Source: a virus. Taken from it: a stretch of 21,883 nucleotides of DNA. This document shows, one piece after another, positions 407-21,883 of the stretch; the stretch's first letter is position 1; every line of letters begins with the position of its first letter. The position numbers and the translations under genes are program-made. The stretch is from the IMG/VR virus record IMGVR_UViG_3300031227_000495, positions 1 to 21,883 of that record; one strand, written 5' to 3'. The notes below the pieces were generated by a model. That model saw only the letters and a program-made list of their open reading frames with translations. It had not been told where the DNA came from and made no database searches.

Positions 407-751
407 ATGGACAAACTGCCTTCCGCTACGGGGGCATGCATGATCTGCTACAGGCCAATTACGCCACAGTTTTGGGCCTGCGCAGAATGCGAAAAAGAGT
501 ATGGCCTTACAGGACCACTCCGCGACTGGCCCGCGTGGGCACGCCAACTCAAGGCTGATCATGAGGCCGAGCGCCGCCAAGAAGCTGAAATGGCTATTTA
601 CTTGGTAGACGCGCCCGACGAATACGACCGTATCTGTTACGGCGAGGACGACGGTATGCGCGATTGCATGGACGACAACGGCGAACCCATCGACGATTAC
701 GCTGGCGCGTGGGAGCGCTTGCGCGAAATGGGCATAAACACAGACGACTAG
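407..751 (+). CDS. Small CxxC-CxxC (zinc-ribbon-like) acidic protein
   Basis: A 114-residue protein of unknown function. Two CxxC pairs near the N-terminus (CMIC at residues 11-14 and CAEC about 15 residues later) form a possible single zinc ribbon. A charged helix follows (ARQLKADHEAERRQEAEMA), then a very acidic tail (DAPDEYDR, GEDDGMRD, DDNGEPIDDY). The ATG at 407 follows a purine-rich GAGGGGA site; a GTG at 392 is also in frame but its site is weaker. The stop codon touches the first base of the structured-RNA region that follows. Possible roles include a nucleic-acid- or protein-binding accessory factor, but nothing in the sequence decides this. Confidence 0.65.
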   Translation: MDKLPSATGACMICYRPITPQFWACAECEKEYGLTGPLRDWPAWARQLKADHEAERRQEAEMAIYLVDAPDEYDRICYGEDDGMRDCMDDNGEPIDDYAGAWERLREMGINTDD

Positions 752-888
752 CTTGCATTCTCGGCAACGCCCGACCACCTCCTGACACCCGGCAGCATCC
801 GGCCGGGTGCTGCCGAGAGCGCAAGCCAACCACATCGGCCCAGACCCTGCGGCGCGGGCAAGACTTGCAGGCCAGCGGCGCGCCTGGA

Positions 889-901
889 CCAAGCGCCGCA
901 A
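889..901 (+). repeat. Direct repeat copy 1 (CCAAGCGCCGCAA)
   Basis: An exact 13-nt direct repeat whose second copy is at 1160-1172. The similarity extends a few bases to the left in both (CCTGGA or CCTGGG). This copy forms part of the strand 886-895, which pairs perfectly with 1055-1064. Confidence 0.8.
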
Positions 902-1159
902 ACATGCGCTGAACGCCCAAGGGGCTACAAGGTCTAGGGGACTGCCCGAGGAAAACGGGCTTGACGATCCTATGGTGGTGCCCAAGCATGCGGGCTAAAT
1001 GTCCTCAACATAAAACCACCAAGCCGGGGCGGAACCGGCACAGCGCACTAGCGACGCTTGGTCCGGTGTCCTTCGGGGCATCCTTAACCACGTTCGAGTC
1101 GTGGGCCTGGGGCGACCGATGAGGCGCTCCAGGCGTGAGTGGACAAGGGAAGCCCTGGG

Positions 1160-1172
1160 CCAAGCGCCGCAA
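1160..1172 (+). repeat. Direct repeat copy 2 (CCAAGCGCCGCAA)
   Basis: The second exact copy of the 13-nt repeat, 271 nt after the first. Its strand 1157-1166 can also pair with 1055-1064 (10 bp, one G-U), so the two copies compete for the same partner. Confidence 0.8.
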
Positions 1173-1260
1173 CCGCCCCGAGGTGTTTAGGCGCAGCATG
1201 TAACCCCGCGAAAGCGGTGCATAAGAGGGCCAGCGTTGCGCACTGGCGGGGCGATAGTAC

Positions 1261-2074: not shown

Positions 2075-2675
2075 CGACTATTTGCGCATGGGGCCGGGCC
2101 GGCTGCTCACGAGCGTCGCCGATGAGTACGCCGAAATGCACCAGAATGCACCGACACAGAGCATTCACACGCTCAAGCGGTGGTCGCAACGCTACAGTTG
2201 GCCCGAACGTGCCGCATCCTACGATGTTGAGCTAGAGGCGCAGAAGAACGCCCAAGCCGAGGCGATCATGCAAGAGGGCCTTGCGCTGGCACACAACCGC
2301 GTCGACAAGCTCAAGGATCTCGCGGGCCTGCTGTGGTCCGAGATGCACGAGCGCGGAGAGGATGACACGCTGCACAATCTGTGGGTGCCGGACGTCAAGA
2401 ACATCGGCGGGGTGGCCGTAGATATTGAGCACTTTAACGCAGGCATCATCCGCGAGTATCGCGACTCGCTAGATGATATCGCCAAGGAGACCGGCGGCAG
2501 AGTCAAGATACAAGAAGTCACCGGCAAGGGCGGCGGACCGATAGAGACCAAGAGCGAAACGACGGTAGCAGTAAACCATGGTGATGAGTTGCGCGAGTTT
2601 ATCAGAGCCCTCCACGATTCCGGCCTTGCCGAAATTGACGATGACGAGGTACATCCCGCACAGGCCAACACCTAG
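2004..2675 (+). CDS. terS: Terminase small subunit (HTH, DNA recognition)
   Basis: A 223-residue protein read as the small terminase subunit, which binds the packaging site and brings DNA to the large subunit. The N-terminal third carries the typical pattern: ESFRAIQACNDYLRMGPGRLL, an HTH (LTSVADEYAEMHQNAPTQSI), then HTLKRWSQRYSWPERAASYD, like the 'L.rWS.r..W.eRa.aYD' signature of many phage small terminases. A long charged helix follows, then a Gly-rich linker (TGKGGGPIE) and an acidic C-terminus. The ATG at 2004 is preferred because the conserved N-terminus lies upstream of the alternative ATG at 2088; the ribosome site is weak (CAGG). It overlaps the gene before by 71 nt and the large terminase by 35 nt, which is consistent with coupled translation. 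Confidence 0.78.
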   Translation: MDQVSLLAGERQKSESFRAIQACNDYLRMGPGRLLTSVADEYAEMHQNAPTQSIHTLKRWSQRYSWPERAASYDVELEAQKNAQAEAIMQEGLALAHNRVDKLKDLAGLLWSEMHERGEDDTLHNLWVPDVKNIGGVAVDIEHFNAGIIREYRDSLDDIAKETGGRVKIQEVTGKGGGPIETKSETTVAVNHGDELREFIRALHDSGLAEIDDDEVHPAQANT

Positions 2676-3876
2676 GCAGTGGCTCTTTTTGCTACTCGAT
2701 GACAGAGAGGTGTTTTACGGCGGGGCAGCCGGTGGCGGCAAGAGTGATGCGCTGCTCATGGCGGGGCTACAGTACGCAGATGTGCCGGGTTACGCGGCGA
2801 TCCTGTTCCGCCGAACCTTTGCCGACTTGGCTTTGCCGGGCGCGCTACTAGAACGCTCTATGGAATGGTTAGGACCAACAGACGCCAAGTGGAACGGGCA
2901 AGAGCACCGTTGGACGTTCCCAAGCGGGGCATCGCTGAGCTTTGGCTATCTGGACACAGAGAACCAAAAGTATAGGTACCAATCGGCAGAGTTTCAATTC
3001 ATCGGCTTTGATGAGCTGACACAGTTTAGTGAAAGCCAGTATCGGTATCTATTCAGTCGATTGCGCAGGCTCAGGGACGTCGAGACCCCGTTGCGAATGC
3101 GCAGCGCCTCTAACCCAGGCGGCACCGGCCACGAATGGGTGCGACGTAGGTTCATCGACGAACGAGGCGCCAACGGGCGCATATTCATACCCGCCAAGCT
3201 GGACGATAACCCGTACCTAGACCGCAACTCGTATGCCGAGAGCCTGAGCGAACTAGATCCGGTGACACGAGCGCAGCTTATGGCAGGCGACTGGGACGTA
3301 CAAGCCGGCGGGCTCAAGTTCCAGCGTCAATGGTTCGAGATTATCGACCAAGCGCCACAAGGCATGCACTGGGTGCGCTTTTGGGACTTGGCTGCAACTG
3401 AGGCCAAGCCCGGCAGAGATCCAGACTGGTTGGCAGGGCTCAAGCTAGCCGAGCGGGAAGGCGTCTACTACGTTGGCGACGTTCGCAGGTTGCGAGCAAC
3501 GCCCAAGGACGGTGATGACCTGATGGCCCAGACGGCCGCGCTAGACGGGGTGGAGACAACCATCGCCATAGAGCAAGAGCCGGGAGCTAGCGGCAAGAAG
3601 CTGATCGACCACTATCAGCGCTACGCGCTCAAGGGGTTCACAGTATACGGGCGCAGAGCTACCGGCAACAAAGAGCTGCGATCAAACCCAGTAAGTTCAG
3701 CGGCACAGGCGGGCAACGTCAAGCTGGTGCGGGGAGCGTGGATCAGCAACTTTCTCGACGAGATAGACGCTTTCCCATTGGGGCGGCACGATGATCAGGT
3801 AGACGCACTGAGCGGCGCATTCGCAGAGCTGTTCATTCCGCGCAAGCCGCGCAAGGCAAGGATGATTCAACTTTGA
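2641..3876 (+). CDS. terL: Terminase large subunit (ATPase and nuclease)
   Basis: A 411-residue packaging motor protein. The ATPase domain starts with a Q-motif-like YIPHRPTPRQW, Walker A GGAAGGGKS at residues 27-35, an arginine-rich segment LFRRTF, Walker B IGFDEL at 121-126 and the coupling segment SNPGGTGHEW. The C-terminal RNase H-like nuclease (Terminase_6C type) shows RFWDLA with Asp249, an acidic strand TIAIEQEP near residue 309 and HDDQVDA at 383-389. These give the acidic residues expected to hold metal. The ATG at 2641 was chosen because the protein begins just before the conserved Q-motif; earlier in-frame starts only add sequence shared with the small subunit's reading frame. It ends in an overlap with the portal start. 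The length is on the short side but all motifs are present. Confidence 0.93.
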   Translation: MTRYIPHRPTPRQWLFLLLDDREVFYGGAAGGGKSDALLMAGLQYADVPGYAAILFRRTFADLALPGALLERSMEWLGPTDAKWNGQEHRWTFPSGASLSFGYLDTENQKYRYQSAEFQFIGFDELTQFSESQYRYLFSRLRRLRDVETPLRMRSASNPGGTGHEWVRRRFIDERGANGRIFIPAKLDDNPYLDRNSYAESLSELDPVTRAQLMAGDWDVQAGGLKFQRQWFEIIDQAPQGMHWVRFWDLAATEAKPGRDPDWLAGLKLAEREGVYYVGDVRRLRATPKDGDDLMAQTAALDGVETTIAIEQEPGASGKKLIDHYQRYALKGFTVYGRRATGNKELRSNPVSSAAQAGNVKLVRGAWISNFLDEIDAFPLGRHDDQVDALSGAFAELFIPRKPRKARMIQL

Positions 3877-5225
3877 GCGAGCTCGAAATAGCATACGAAC
3901 AACTCACGGCCAAGGCCAACGCGCAGAGCGGTTGGTGGAATTACTACGACGGTGACCAGCCGCTTGTCTACACAGCCAAGCGCCTGCAGGCCGAGTTCAA
4001 GAACATGAACGCGCGGTTCACTGAGAACTGGTGCGCTGTCGTGGTGGATTCGGTCCTCGAGCGCATCACGCTCAAGCGGTTTGCGATTGAGAGCAACGAG
4101 CCAGCCGAGAAGCGCGCCAACGAGCTGTGGCGTGAAACCGAGATGAACCTTGACGACCTAGAGGCGCACCGCGCGGCGCTGGTGTGTGGCGAGTCCTACG
4201 TGCTGGCGTGGCGCGAAGCCGACAGCCCGGTCGAGGCCTACTACCACGACCCGCGATCCTGCCACATCCACTACGACCCAGAGCGCCCGAGACACAAGCT
4301 ATGGGCGGCCAAGTGGTGGAACGATTCTGGCGAGGACGGGCGTCAGCACATCACGATCTATGGCACTGACAAGATTCTCTATTACGTGAGCACCAAGAAA
4401 GCCGACGCGGTACGGAGCGCTGGCGACTTTGTGAAAGATGAAAGCACAGCCCCAGAGGGCGAGGCCGCCAACCCCACCGGCGTCGTGCCCATGTTCCACC
4501 ATCGCCGCAACCGGCGGGTGATTCAGAGCGAGCTCGCGAACGTGCGGTCGCTGCAAGACGCGGCCAACAAGACACTGTCGGACATGATGGTAGCAGCCGA
4601 GTTCGGCGCGTACAAGCAGCGCTATGTGATCGGCAACGGCGACCTGAGCGCGTTGCGCGCCTCGCCCAGCCGCATCATGGATATTCCCGGCGGAGAGGGG
4701 CAGGGGCAGGACACGCAGGTGGGCGAGTTCAGCGAGGCCAACCTGGGCCAGTTCCTAGAAGTGCTCAACTATCTAGCGCAAGCCATCGGCGTGATCAGCA
4801 GGACGCCGCGGCATTACTTCTATGCACAGGCCGGCACGCCCTCGGGCGAGGCGCTGATTGCCATGGAAGCGCCGCTCAACCACAAAGCGGCCAGCTACAT
4901 TGAACTGTTCGCCGCAACGTGGGCGCAGGCCATGGCGTTCATGCTCACCCTGGACGGCGTCACGGGCGTGGAGCCGTCCGACATCAAGGTGATCTTTGAG
5001 CGACCCGAGACCGTCCAGCCCAAGACACAGGCGGACATTCGACAGGTCAACAAGAACGCGGGGATCCCGATAACCACGTCGCTGAGGTGGGAAGGCAAGA
5101 GCGTGTCTGAGATTGAGGCGATGCGAGCCGATGCGCAGACCGAGCAGGCCGCTAGTGTCGCCAGCTATGGTGCTCTGCAGATTGAGATGGCTCGCCGATC
5201 CTCGCAGCAAGAGGACGTGGCCTAG
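3873..5225 (+). CDS. Portal protein (SPP1 Gp6-like)
   Basis: A 450-residue portal subunit. Twelve copies should form the ring through which DNA enters and leaves the head and on which the terminase docks. The pattern follows Gp6-type portals: an early YYDGDQPLVYTAKRL, NMNARFTENWCAVVVDSVLERI, then the wing region with GESYVLAWRE and a DPRSCHIHYDP strand. After the stem-like middle comes SRTPRHYFYAQAGTPSGEALIAMEAPLNHKA... region residues, and a helical C-terminus with PITTSLRWEG. The start is a TTG at 3873 that overlaps the terminase stop (TTGA); AAGGA at 3858-3862 lies 10 nt before it. The length is normal for the family. Confidence 0.9.
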   Translation: MSELEIAYEQLTAKANAQSGWWNYYDGDQPLVYTAKRLQAEFKNMNARFTENWCAVVVDSVLERITLKRFAIESNEPAEKRANELWRETEMNLDDLEAHRAALVCGESYVLAWREADSPVEAYYHDPRSCHIHYDPERPRHKLWAAKWWNDSGEDGRQHITIYGTDKILYYVSTKKADAVRSAGDFVKDESTAPEGEAANPTGVVPMFHHRRNRRVIQSELANVRSLQDAANKTLSDMMVAAEFGAYKQRYVIGNGDLSALRASPSRIMDIPGGEGQGQDTQVGEFSEANLGQFLEVLNYLAQAIGVISRTPRHYFYAQAGTPSGEALIAMEAPLNHKAASYIELFAATWAQAMAFMLTLDGVTGVEPSDIKVIFERPETVQPKTQADIRQVNKNAGIPITTSLRWEGKSVSEIEAMRADAQTEQAASVASYGALQIEMARRSSQQEDVA

Positions 5226-13584: not shown

Positions 13585-13796
13585 AGCAAATCGGGCTGGC
13601 CCAATCTTACGTGAGGCGCAAACAGATGGAAGCCAAGATACTTGTCAGCGTGATCGCTGAGACAATGGCCGGCCAGGTTGGCGGGGCGCCTGCGCAAAAG
13701 GGCGCCGGGCCAGCGCCTACGATACACGCGCGCGGCAAATCATACAGGCGGATTGCGCCTGATGCGATGCTCGCTCGTATGGGAGTAACGTTCTAG
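13129..13796 (+). CDS. Tail assembly chaperone, frameshifted long (GT-like) form
   Basis: The predicted product joins 13129-13467 with 13467-13796 by a -1 slip and is 222 residues long. Beyond residue 113 the -1 frame reads as a credible protein: SDRTELSLSQWGRWDDEFDS, IEQIGLAQSYVRRKQMEAKI and LVSVIAETMAG. Its helices resemble the T domain that contacts the tape measure protein. The C-terminus (SYRRIAPDAMLARMGVTF) runs to the TAG that overlaps the tape measure start. A GTG at 13611 could start a free 61-residue product, but it has no clear ribosome site and would lose the QWGRWDDEFD segment. The join position is inferred. Confidence 0.72.
13461..13467 (+). promoter_or_regulatory. Programmed -1 frameshift site (slippery CCCTTTT)
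   Basis: The heptamer C-CCT-TTT is in the exact phase needed: frame-0 codons Pro112 (CCT) and Phe113 (TTT) re-pair as CCC and TTT after a -1 slip. The -1 frame is then open through to the TAG at 13794-13796. Just downstream, 13469-13473 can pair with 13500-13504, enclosing the stem 13479-13482/13490-13493, a possible stimulatory structure. A G to GT chaperone frameshift is conserved among long-tailed phages at this position. Confidence 0.75.
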
Positions 13797-16700
13797 TGGC
13801 TGAAAGCATAAAGCTGGCTGACGCAATTGTCATGCTGGCAGCCGATAACGCCCAACTGAAAAAGGATCTTGCCAGCGCTGAAGGTGAGACCAAGAGCTCC
13901 ACCGACCGCCTCTCCGGCCTGTTCAAGGCCGTTGTAGGCGGGGCGGTTGTGGGCATGATCGTCGCTGGCGTCGGCAAGATCGCGGGCGCGATCGGCGGCA
14001 TGGTGCAAGACGCTGCAGGCGTCGAGGTTGTGCGTGCCAACTTTGGGCGCTTGGCCTCCAGCATTGGCGCAACGCCCACGGATGCGCTAGATGGGCTGCG
14101 TGCGGCCACGCGCGGCCTGGTCGAAGACGCCTCGCTGATGCAAACCGCCAACATGTATATGGCGATGGGCTTGGCCACGACCAACGAAGAGATGCAGACC
14201 CAGATCGAGACGGCCACCCAGCTTGGTATGGCCATGGGCAACTCGGCAGAAGAGTCCGCAGAATCGTGGGCGCTGATGAACGCCAACATGTCAGCCGCCC
14301 GGCTCGACTCGTTTGGCATCAGCTCGGGCGCCGTGAACGCGCGCATCAACGAACTCACGACCGGCGTCAACGCGCTCTCTCGCGAAGAGGCGTGGAACAT
14401 CGCCGTCAACGAGCAAGCGGCCATCTCTTTGCAGCGCGTGGGCGAACAGACAGGCACCGCCTCGCAGCGCTGGGCGGCGGCCACTGCCAACCTCAAGGAC
14501 TCGGTAGGGCGCGGCTTTGTGGGCGCCTTTGAGAACGCCCTGAGCGGCGCGGCCAGCCTCGTACAAAAGTTCACCCCGCTGTTGCAGTCCGTCTCCGGCG
14601 GCCTGGGCGCAATCGCCAACCAGGGGATCGAGGTGCTCAAGCGGCTCGTGACCGTCATGGCCGAAAAGCTCGGCATTGACTTTGGCGACATGTCAAAGAA
14701 CGCCGGCACATGGGGCCAGAACATCACCATCCAGCTAGCCAAAGGCATCGCCTCGGCTATCGGCGCTGTGATGACAGCCCTCAACCGATTGGGCGGCGCT
14801 ATCGCCGGCATGCTCAAGCCTGGCTCGCCGCCAAAGCTGTTGCCCGACATCGACAAATGGGGCGCGGATGCCGCGACCGTCTACATGGATGGCTGGGGCG
14901 ACGCCGACTATAGCGTGTTCGACCTCCTCACCGACAAAATCGGCGGGTACATCAAGGGCCTTGGCGAAGACGTCATGCCCAAAGAGGATGTGAACCCCTG
15001 GCTCGCATCGCTCAACGCGGCCATCGCCGAAACGATCAACAGCGTCAACGAGACCGGCAACGTATCCCTCGATGTGTTTGATGACATCCTGGGCCAGGTC
15101 GACTTTTTGCCCGCCTCATTCCAGGATTATGCTCGCTCGCTGTTGGACGCAGAGCTGGCTCAGCTTGACCTGACCTCAGCGATGGACACGCTCGAGGCCG
15201 CTACCCAAGCGGTGAGCGACGCCCAGGACGAGCTCAACGCGATCACCGACGAATACTCGGCAAAGCTGGCACCGCTCAACAAAGAGATGGCCGCGCTGCA
15301 AGCGCAAAAGCAAGCCATCAAAGACAAGCAGCGGCTGGCCAAGCTCAACGCGACGCTCATTGATGGTGAGGCCACGGCAGAAGAAAAGGCGCTGGCCCGC
15401 CTAGAGATTGAGGAAATCGGCCTCAAGCAACAGATGGCTCTGGTTGAGGAAGAACGCGACGTCGCCGTGGACGCCCAGCAAGCCAAGATCGATGCGCTAG
15501 GCGAGGCAGAGGCCGCAGCTAAAGCAGAGGTTGACGCCAAAGCCGAGGCCCTGACGCTGGCTCAAGAGCAGATCGCCGCGAGTGAGCGGTTGATTGGCGT
15601 CCAGCAAGAGGCCAACGGAATGATCAACGAGCAGGCTAGCCTCATGGCCGGCCTGGCCGCAACCATGGAAGGCGTGGGCGCTTCGATGGGTGGCATGAGC
15701 ACGTCGATGGCCGGGATCGGCCCGTCGATTACCGAAAGCCTAGAGGCTGTGACTGGCGAGGGCGGCATTGCCGACGTCGGTGATGGGTTGGCGCTTGGCA
15801 TTACCGACGGCCTATCAGGTATTACCGATGACATTATGGCCGAGTTCGCCCCAATTGAGGGCAACATCCAAACGCTGACGGATACCTGGTCGGGCATCTT
15901 TACATCCGAGGGCGGCACGGCCAAAGAGAAGCTGGCCATTATCGCCACGGAAACATGGGACAAAATCAAGGGCGTCGTTGCCACAAAGGCCGTCGAGCTG
16001 ATAACGGAGATCAGCACCAAACTCTTTATCAAGATGGCCACGGCTTACTGCATGTTTTTTTACAACCTAGACGCGGCTCTACTCATGTGGTGGCTCGGGC
16101 TTATGTGCGACCTCGGGATGTGGTGGCTCGGGCTTATGCGCGACCTCGGGATCTGGTGGCTCGGCCTCGTTACGGACCTCACGACGTGGTGGGACGACCT
16201 TATTACGGAAATCGAGGATTGGTGGGACACCTTCCTGTCGGATATGGAGACCTGGTTTAGTGACCTGTGGGATTCTATCTCAACCTGGTGGGAAGATTTG
16301 GTGGCGGACCTTACCGCTTGGTGGGCGGGCCTAGTTATCAGCGTTGTCGCGTGGTGGGAAGCGTTCCGGCTCAGCTTGGAAGGGTGGCTAGGCGGCATTC
16401 TTGTCTGGATTGAGGAGCAATGGGTTGTTCTCACAACGGCAGCCACGACGGGGTGGGGCAATTTCCGGGCCGCCATTGAGGACGTTTTGGAGGGCATTCA
16501 AACTTGGATCACGAACATCTTTACTGGGCCGGACGGCATCCTCACGTTTTTGGGCAACCTCGACTTGGCCGCTATTGGCGCGGGCATCTTTGACACCTTG
16601 TGGACCGGGCTCAAGACAAAATGGAACGAAATCGCTGTTTGGATGAATACCAAGATCGCCGCCGCGTGGGCGGTGCTGCAGGCAGTTTGGCCTAACCTTG

Positions 16701-21055: not shown

Positions 21056-21883
21056 GTGAAACGTCTGGCGTTCGATGTGCTAATAGCTCTATTGGCGCTC
21101 GTGCTCCTGCTAGCGTTTTTGTACATCAAAGTTAGCGCGGGCACGGGCTACGATTCAAACATTGCTACGCCGTTGGTGCCGATCCTGAAAAAGCCCGTTA
21201 CGTCGGGCATCGGCCCGATGTTTGGCGAGATGCCAGACGAGGGCGTGTGGTGCACATGGGACGGCTGGAATGAGCTAGAGAACCCGCGCGGCACGTATCA
21301 TTTTGACAAGGTCATCGCCATGCTGGACGAGGCAGAGCGACGCGGGGTGAGTGTGCAATACCAAGTGCTGGCGTATACCAGCGACGTTGTAGGGGCGCGG
21401 TATTTCATGACCTGGACGCCCACGGGCTACGCGGCGGACATTCTCATAACCGCAGAGTACGAAGGCGACACCTACACAGCGGCTATGCCCAACTGGGCCA
21501 GCTATGACTGGACCGCTGGCTATTTACGGTGCGTGTGTGCGCTGGGGCGGGCCATTGACGGCCACCCGGCGCTGGAAAGCTTCCTAGTCCCTTCCGGGTT
21601 GGATGGCGAGACGCACCCCATCAAGGACTTTCAATTCAACTGGGAAACACAATATCTACCCGGCGTCGAAGGCGGGCAAGAGCACTACTTTGGCGAGTTC
21701 ATCAACCGATCGATCCTCACCAGTTCGATAGCGTTCAAGCGCACACAACTATTCCTAAATTGTGCGCCAGGCGGCAACGCTCGTATGGGCTGGGCCGACT
21801 ACGCCGCCGGGTATGGCGTCGGGCTCAAGCACAGCGGCGTGACCTACGACCTGGACTCGCACGTGGGATATGGAACTGAGGTC
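21056..21883 (+). CDS. Membrane-anchored glycoside-hydrolase-like protein, 3' truncated
   Basis: An open frame from a GTG at 21056 to the end of the window (276 residues, no stop). AGAGGAGG at 21042-21049 gives a strong start. Residues 2-23 (KRLAFDVLIALLALVLLLAF) are a basic residue pair and one membrane segment, so the rest should lie outside the cytoplasm. From about 48 the protein resembles a TIM-barrel glycoside hydrolase: VTSGIGPMFGEMPDEGVWCT, WDGWNELENPRGTYHFDKVI and AMLDEAERRGVSVQYQVLAY, the common 'W..lEp..G.Y.fd..d..l..a...G' strand-helix start. The catalytic acids cannot be assigned with certainty. It could be a cell-wall or polysaccharide enzyme, or a host-derived cargo gene. Confidence 0.62.
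   Translation, partial: MKRLAFDVLIALLALVLLLAFLYIKVSAGTGYDSNIATPLVPILKKPVTSGIGPMFGEMPDEGVWCTWDGWNELENPRGTYHFDKVIAMLDEAERRGVSVQYQVLAYTSDVVGARYFMTWTPTGYAADILITAEYEGDTYTAAMPNWASYDWTAGYLRCVCALGRAIDGHPALESFLVPSGLDGETHPIKDFQFNWETQYLPGVEGGQEHYFGEFINRSILTSSIAFKRTQLFLNCAPGGNARMGWADYAAGYGVGLKHSGVTYDLDSHVGYGTEV

Follow-up and report, generated by a model that had tools for sequence, protein, structure and literature searches.

What does the gap between a regulator gene and the terminase genes of this phage encode? The window, that is, the whole stretch of 21,883 nt that was analysed, is a 21.9-kb IMG/VR viral contig classed as linear, and its head and tail genes are those of a tailed phage. The structural genes include terminase, an SPP1-type portal, and an HK97-type capsid protein, and a long ORF of 1064 amino acids was read as tape measure. 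We assign a probability of about one half to the reading that the gap encodes a + strand phage non-coding RNA (approximately positions 848–1172, perhaps extending to 1253) with a circularly permuted tRNA-like module in its 3' half. This reading is based on the missing coding signal, the architecture of the module, and a gene order shared with related viruses, from which we infer transcription, a tertiary fold, and a function.

Gene order and coding potential around the gap

A gene for a sigma-70 region-4-like protein is followed by a Cys-rich ORF, the gap (752–1270), three small ORFs, and the genes for the small and large terminase subunits:

166–357, + strand: gene of a sigma-70 region-4-like HTH protein (Pfam Sigma70_r4_2, E 6.5e-12)
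407–751, + strand: Cys-rich small ORF with four conserved Cys (CMIC..C..C) and a WPxWA motif, directly 5' of the RNA locus
1271–1477, + strand: small ORF, the first 3' of the RNA locus (codon score +0.28)
2004–2675 and 2578–3876, + strand: small and large terminase subunits (PHROG 6299 and 979, Pfam Terminase_6)

The HTH protein is a probable late regulator and shares 35% identity with an HTH ORF of the related locus L086. The Cys-rich ORF matched no family in Pfam or PHROG and has homologues in loci L084–L086, L116, L124, and L126. The large terminase has approximately 50% identity to that of the archaeal phages psiM2 (a Methanobacterium phage) and psiM100 and approximately 52% to that of Gordonia phages. 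Elsewhere on the contig, an ORF located 3' of the tail genes (21056–21883) is truncated by the contig end and appears glycoside hydrolase-like by eye, and the start of the putative tape-measure gene (13796–14010) is the strongest fold outlier of the contig, with a z of about −5 on both strands relative to shuffles.

The first-pass annotation had described the gap as devoid of a credible gene, which is borne out. With codon statistics trained on the structural genes of the same phage, no ORF inside the gap scored as coding on either strand (mean log-odds of −0.46 to −0.11 on the + strand and −0.67 to −0.28 on the − strand), as compared to +0.10 to +0.35 for real genes of the contig. Neither a sigma-70 promoter nor a + strand intrinsic terminator was found near the RNA locus. 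Searches for DNA similar to the gap yielded no homologue from phages, plasmids, the record itself, or some 120 related viral loci, and none of the RNA was recovered from viral, genome, phage, and plasmid collections, from which very near relatives may be absent; the gap RNA is thus far known from a single sequence. Several short matches were rejected. IMG/VR matches to the repeat CCTGGNCCAAGCGCCGCAA were restricted to L082 and L083 and lie within protein genes, as does a 17-mer match in L077, and the similarity of CTTCGGGGCA..TAACC in L086 to 1071–1089 is too short for a homology claim.

Predicted fold of the gap

The minimum-energy fold divides the gap into a hairpin, a main domain with a branched subdomain, and a 3' domain:

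751–826, + strand: long imperfect hairpin right after the stop codon of the Cys-rich ORF (z −5.9 on the + strand, −5.8 on the − strand)
848–1171, + strand: main RNA domain, closed by 848–855/1164–1171 and 870–873/1158–1161
886–1064, + strand: branched 5' subdomain, closed by the perfect 10-bp helix 886–895/1055–1064 plus 897–899/1051–1053
1174–1253, + strand: 3' domain, closed by CGCCCCG/CGGGGCG and containing a GAAA hairpin (z −1.5)

At least fourteen mostly compatible helices had been proposed from a first inspection. The helices named there exist, and the minimum-energy fold contains the 10-bp pairings 886–895/1055–1064 and 1105–1114/1125–1134, the T-arm at 1088–1104, the GAAA hairpin CCGC-GAAA-GCGG at 1206–1217, and the 7-bp helix 1174–1180/1247–1253. 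The UUCG hairpin at 1065–1082, however, is not part of the main fold: its ensemble probability is about 0 because 1065–1069 and 1072–1085 pair elsewhere, and as it competes with a more stable stem, not all fourteen helices coexist.

In comparison with shuffled sequences, the best subdomain of the fold exceeds its matched controls but the bulk energy of 828–1253 is unexceptional. For the whole gap, the z is −3.4 (+ strand) and −2.7 (− strand). Much of this is supplied by the hairpin at 751–826, which has 26-nt arms of 81% complementarity and a terminator-like shape without a T tract. With this hairpin removed, 828–1253 has a z of only −2.7, which was equalled or exceeded by six of 90 coding windows, and fold energy alone is therefore weak evidence. 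The best closed subdomain, 870–1161, reached a z of −5.74, as compared to −4.82 for the best of 46 coding windows and −5.29 for the best of 50 shuffles; since it had been picked after the fold was seen, the identical choice was repeated on all of these controls. The − strand was nearly equal in this selection-matched test (z −5.59), as expected for long perfect helices, which fold on both strands, and the test thus does not fix the strand. The main domain (847–1172) has a z of −4.94, and the 5' subdomain a z of −4.2 with a base-pair probability of 0.98. The 3' domain is weakly supported as a structured unit.

The least probable of the explanations weighed here is that the gap is ordinary non-coding filler of high G+C content with helices formed by chance. 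Such filler would be consistent with the energy of 828–1253 (z −2.7, matched by six of 90 coding windows) and with the lack of homologues found, but a 500-nt gap is unusual for a densely packed phage, the subdomain beats its matched controls, and the combination of T-arm and hairpin described below was found in 0 of 20,000 shuffles.

A permuted tRNA-like module at 1072–1159

The T-loop had been listed in the first-pass annotation, but the tRNA-like module around it was missed. It consists of the following elements:

1072–1159, + strand: permuted tRNA-like module as a whole, with closing stem 1072–1085/1146–1159 (13 bp, one A-A mismatch)
1088–1104, + strand: T-arm CCACG-UUCGAGU-CGUGG, canonical in sequence
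1105–1134, + strand: acceptor-like hairpin of 10 bp plus 2 bp with a closing loop, immediately adjacent to the T-arm (base-pair probability 1.0)
1135–1145, + strand: D-loop-like stretch GUGAGUGGACA, assigned by sequence, 3' of the acceptor-like hairpin and without a D-stem

Directly after the last T-arm base, GCCUGGGGCG pairs with CGCUCCAGGC to form the 10-bp hairpin at 1105–1134. Within GUGAGUGGACA, AGUGGACA fits the tRNA D-loop consensus, A-R-Y-G-G-N-N-A, with a GG that would make the contact to the T-loop. The order of stem, T-arm, loop-closed acceptor helix, and stemless D-loop is that of the tRNA-like domain of permuted tmRNA; the T-arm, the loop-closed acceptor helix, and, by inspection, the stemless D-loop of such a domain are present at 1088–1145, and a D-stem and an encoded CCA are absent. 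When the gap was dinucleotide-shuffled 20,000 times, a T-arm arose in 18 of the shuffles and a T-arm abutted by a hairpin of at least 7 bp in none. Folding of 1072–1160 yielded a z of −4.4 on the + strand and −2.8 on the − strand. The + strand is indicated both by this difference in folding and by the T-loop, a motif that is meaningful in RNA and not in DNA.

The same interval in related viruses

Relatives were gathered via the terminase small subunit and the Cys-rich ORF. Loci L084–L086 encode the regulator, the Cys-rich ORF, a helix-closed element of 148 nt, and a tRNA-Thr gene, with regulator and Cys-rich ORF in the same order as in the window. In L116, the order is regulator, a 360-nt gap, Cys-rich ORF, a tRNA-like element, a helix-closed element of approximately 120 nt, an HNH endonuclease gene, and terminase. 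In L124 and L126, the Cys-rich ORF almost adjoins the gene next to terminase, with no RNA gap between them. A search of 1.67 Mb of related loci on both strands for a T-arm with an acceptor partner recovered the window, L084–L086, L116, and a weak match in L022; the T-arm genes of L084–L086 and L116 all lie between the Cys-rich ORF and the terminase small subunit. This interval is a recurrent site of tRNA-like RNA genes, a pattern into which the module of the window fits, and the RNAs of the window and its relatives are not mutually alignable. The permuted T-arm in L022 has weak pairs and was judged a chance match, as was a model match in L091 (E 0.05) that lacks the T-arm. L120, reached via the Cys-rich ORF, is a chance match inside a bacterial gene, and the nearest relatives by large terminase (L002–L005, 81%) have an upstream region that differs from that of the window.

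Individual elements of these loci were described further. The element in L086 (3536–3679; approximately 148 nt) has a closing helix of approximately 20 bp and a z of −4.9 and adjoins the 5' side of the tRNA-Thr gene; it is identical in L084 and L085 and had no match in Rfam. The tRNA-like element of L116 (3713–3778) has a 7-bp acceptor, a T-arm, and a stemless D region (CUGG..GACGG) as in tmRNA. Positions 3716–3776 matched a tmRNA model with an E of 7.6e-5 and 17.9 bits, relative to a gathering score of 47, and the element is possibly a phage tmRNA without reading frame. On its 3' side follows the element of approximately 120 nt (3783–3900), which is closed by the perfect 12-bp helix GGGGTTGCATAT/ATATGCAACCCC (z −3.9) and overlaps the start of the HNH gene. 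The 360-nt gap between regulator and Cys-rich ORF of L116 (2894–3250) contains no coding-like frame, a TATAAT at 2959, and long-range complementary segments of weak fold energy (z −1.8).

L088 harbours an apparent small RNA gene 5' of its terminase region (976–1123), with a TTGACA-17-TAAAAT promoter and a T6 tract at its end. Its helices are interleaved in the order A5-B5-C5-D5-A3-B3-D3-C3 (13, 7, 6, and 5 bp), an unusual knotted pairing.

Phage integration into tRNA genes is frequent, and the T-arm of the window could accordingly be a host tRNA fragment kept as attP, from a host gene ending in CCACGTTCGAGTCGTGGGCCTGGG, or what is left of a decayed tRNA of the type seen in relatives, with the remainder of the gap unconstrained. 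The frequency of such integration and the intact tRNA-Thr gene at the same place in relatives count in favour of this origin. We nevertheless consider it very improbable, because the acceptor strand is fully paired locally in a 10-bp hairpin, which is unexpected for a fragment, the fold of the region exceeds matched controls, and no integrase was noted among the listed ORFs.

Comparison with known RNA families

No Rfam family was detected in the whole window at gathering scores, and searches of 700–1300 and 1060–1175 at E 10 returned none of relevance. The tmRNA_permuted and alpha_tmRNA models had no match in the whole record at E 10, while their positive controls, including Caulobacter vibrioides, were detected, and ARAGORN predicted neither a tRNA nor a tmRNA in the window. 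Models of GOLLD and ROOL were unmatched in the window at gathering score and in 700–1300 at E 10, and the initial statement that no feature identifies the RNA as one of these two holds as far as testable. Given these unmatched models, the RNA was not assigned to permuted tmRNA, YrlA, GOLLD, ROOL, or tRNA. The cloverleaf of a tRNA, with its open acceptor and an anticodon arm, is absent, and no 5' acceptor strand lies where it would normally be expected. Given the missing strand and the lack of an Rfam match, a regular tRNA with a remote 5' half is not supported. Neither RNase P nor a group I intron is supported, with no Rfam match.

The likeness to permuted tmRNA (RF04321, RF01849–RF01851) lies in the order of the module elements, including the gene-level loop that closes the acceptor. 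The module differs in that its acceptor helix has 10–12 bp instead of 7, no CCA is encoded, and it sits in a larger domain; inspection of 1135–1256 by eye revealed no resume codon or tag frame (with an Ala-Ala ending or similar). Phages with two-piece tmRNA genes are known (PMC9004378). In the printed consensus of YrlA (RF02553), a stem tip with a T-arm, an abutting loop-closed acceptor-like hairpin, and a D element follow each other in the same order as in the window. Unlike YrlA, the module has no D-stem; 1060–1175 and 700–1300 did not match the YrlA model at E 10, and no Rsr (Ro60-like) gene was noted among the ten proteins scanned of the 21.9-kb contig. GOLLD and ROOL are large RNAs that phages or prophages carry, often near tRNA genes, and to which no function has been assigned (PMC12286853). 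GOLLD is often longer than 800 nt (PMC12286853), whereas the domain in the window is shorter (approximately 325–430 nt). Phage DS6A encodes a tmRNA without reading frame, expression of which in E. coli inhibits the host tmRNA (PMC11915505); it is a short form, grouped with CDS-less tmRNAs of about 65 bp (PMC11915505). Both this RNA and that of the window are phage-borne and tRNA-like, but the latter is permuted and embedded in a larger RNA, and the element of L116 is closer to the DS6A tmRNA.

The initial proposal of a large structured phage RNA is supported in part. Two of the refuting outcomes listed in the first-pass annotation were checked and did not refute it, as the best subdomain is more stable than matched shuffles and the gap lacks a coding signal. 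The gap is best read as encoding a structured RNA that is probably not translated. The evidence that carries this reading, namely the permuted module at 1072–1159 and the syntenic tRNA- and tmRNA-like elements, differs from that first put forward.

Repeat copies and alternative folds

A 19-nt repeat provides two alternative partners for one strand of the fold:

883–901, + strand: direct repeat copy 1, CCTGGACCAAGCGCCGCAA, which pairs with 1051–1064
1154–1172, + strand: direct repeat copy 2, CCTGGGCCAAGCGCCGCAA, 18/19 identical to copy 1 and the alternative partner of 1051–1064
1051–1064, + strand: inverted repeat copy, whose partner is copy 1 in state A and copy 2 in state B
1065–1082, + strand: UUCG hairpin, present in state B only

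Exact copies of GGNCCAAGCGNCGC are located at 886–899 and 1157–1170 (direct) and 1051–1064 (inverted), and no other site in the contig has fewer than two mismatches to it. In state A, copy 1 is paired with 1051–1064 and copy 2 contributes to domain closure. In state B, pairing of 1051–1064 with 1157–1170 generates a compact unit of 120 nt (1051–1170; z −4.9, 0 of 500 shuffles), the stem of which carries the UUCG hairpin, the T-arm, and the acceptor hairpin; the latter two are common to both states. The predicted energies of −202.0 kcal/mol (state A) and −198.9 kcal/mol (state B) are 3.1 kcal/mol apart, a difference that lies inside the error of the energy model. By these modelled energies, the repeat could allow switching between two near-equal folds.

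The repeats are also central to the main rival explanation, a DNA packaging site of the cosB or pac type in which the small terminase subunit would bind the GGNCCAAGCGNCGC copies and the RNA helices would arise incidentally. Three exact copies, two direct and one inverted, in a gap immediately 5' of the packaging genes agree with such a site, as do perfect helices that fold on both strands. We consider it unlikely, because it accounts neither for the T-arm with its abutting acceptor hairpin nor for the tRNA and tmRNA-like elements that relatives carry in this interval, and because the predicted RNA fold also uses the GGNCCAAGCGNCGC copies as pairing partners. The two folds could alternatively belong to a 5' leader that is transcribed ahead of the late or packaging operon and acts in cis, not as a separate RNA. 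Such a leader would control elongation by antitermination or attenuation, with the repeat copies competing for 1051–1064 in the manner of an attenuator. The position of the gap after the sigma-r4-like regulator and ahead of the terminase operon is compatible with a leader, and two folds only 3.1 kcal/mol apart do swap the same strand. A leader is distinctly improbable, however, as the T tract is missing after both alternative helices, no terminator-like site is present on the + strand, and tRNA or tRNA-like genes occupy this interval in relatives.

Putative function and implications

If the gap encodes a non-coding RNA as we propose, its module would fold like the elbow and acceptor arm of a tRNA or tmRNA, with the acceptor-like helix stacked on the T-arm, and the 5' subdomain would serve as scaffold. 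Because the acceptor is closed by a loop, the module could not be aminoacylated, and blocked aminoacylation is the reason to propose that it acts as a mimic or decoy. Its target would be a host factor that binds tRNA or tmRNA; candidates are SmpB together with trans-translation, a defence nuclease that cleaves tRNA, or an enzyme of tRNA processing. By analogy, the RNA may work like the DS6A tmRNA without reading frame, as an inhibitor of host tmRNA. We regard the mimic or decoy role as the most likely mechanism, although doubtful on its own. As a tentative possibility, the gap RNA might represent a new phage RNA class in which a circularly permuted tRNA mimic is joined to a branched scaffold that may be bistable. 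The phage would then belong to a lineage whose pre-terminase interval repeatedly gains tRNAs, tmRNA-like RNAs, or permuted tRNA-like RNAs, plausibly as decoys against translation-rescue or tRNA-cutting systems.

A T-arm beside a hairpin can flag RNAs that Rfam overlooks. Permuted tRNA-like modules have so far been found in two-piece tmRNA and bacterial Y RNAs, and a large phage RNA would, if our reading is true, be the third setting. It would also point to a fixed hot spot in which tRNA mimics evolve in phages.
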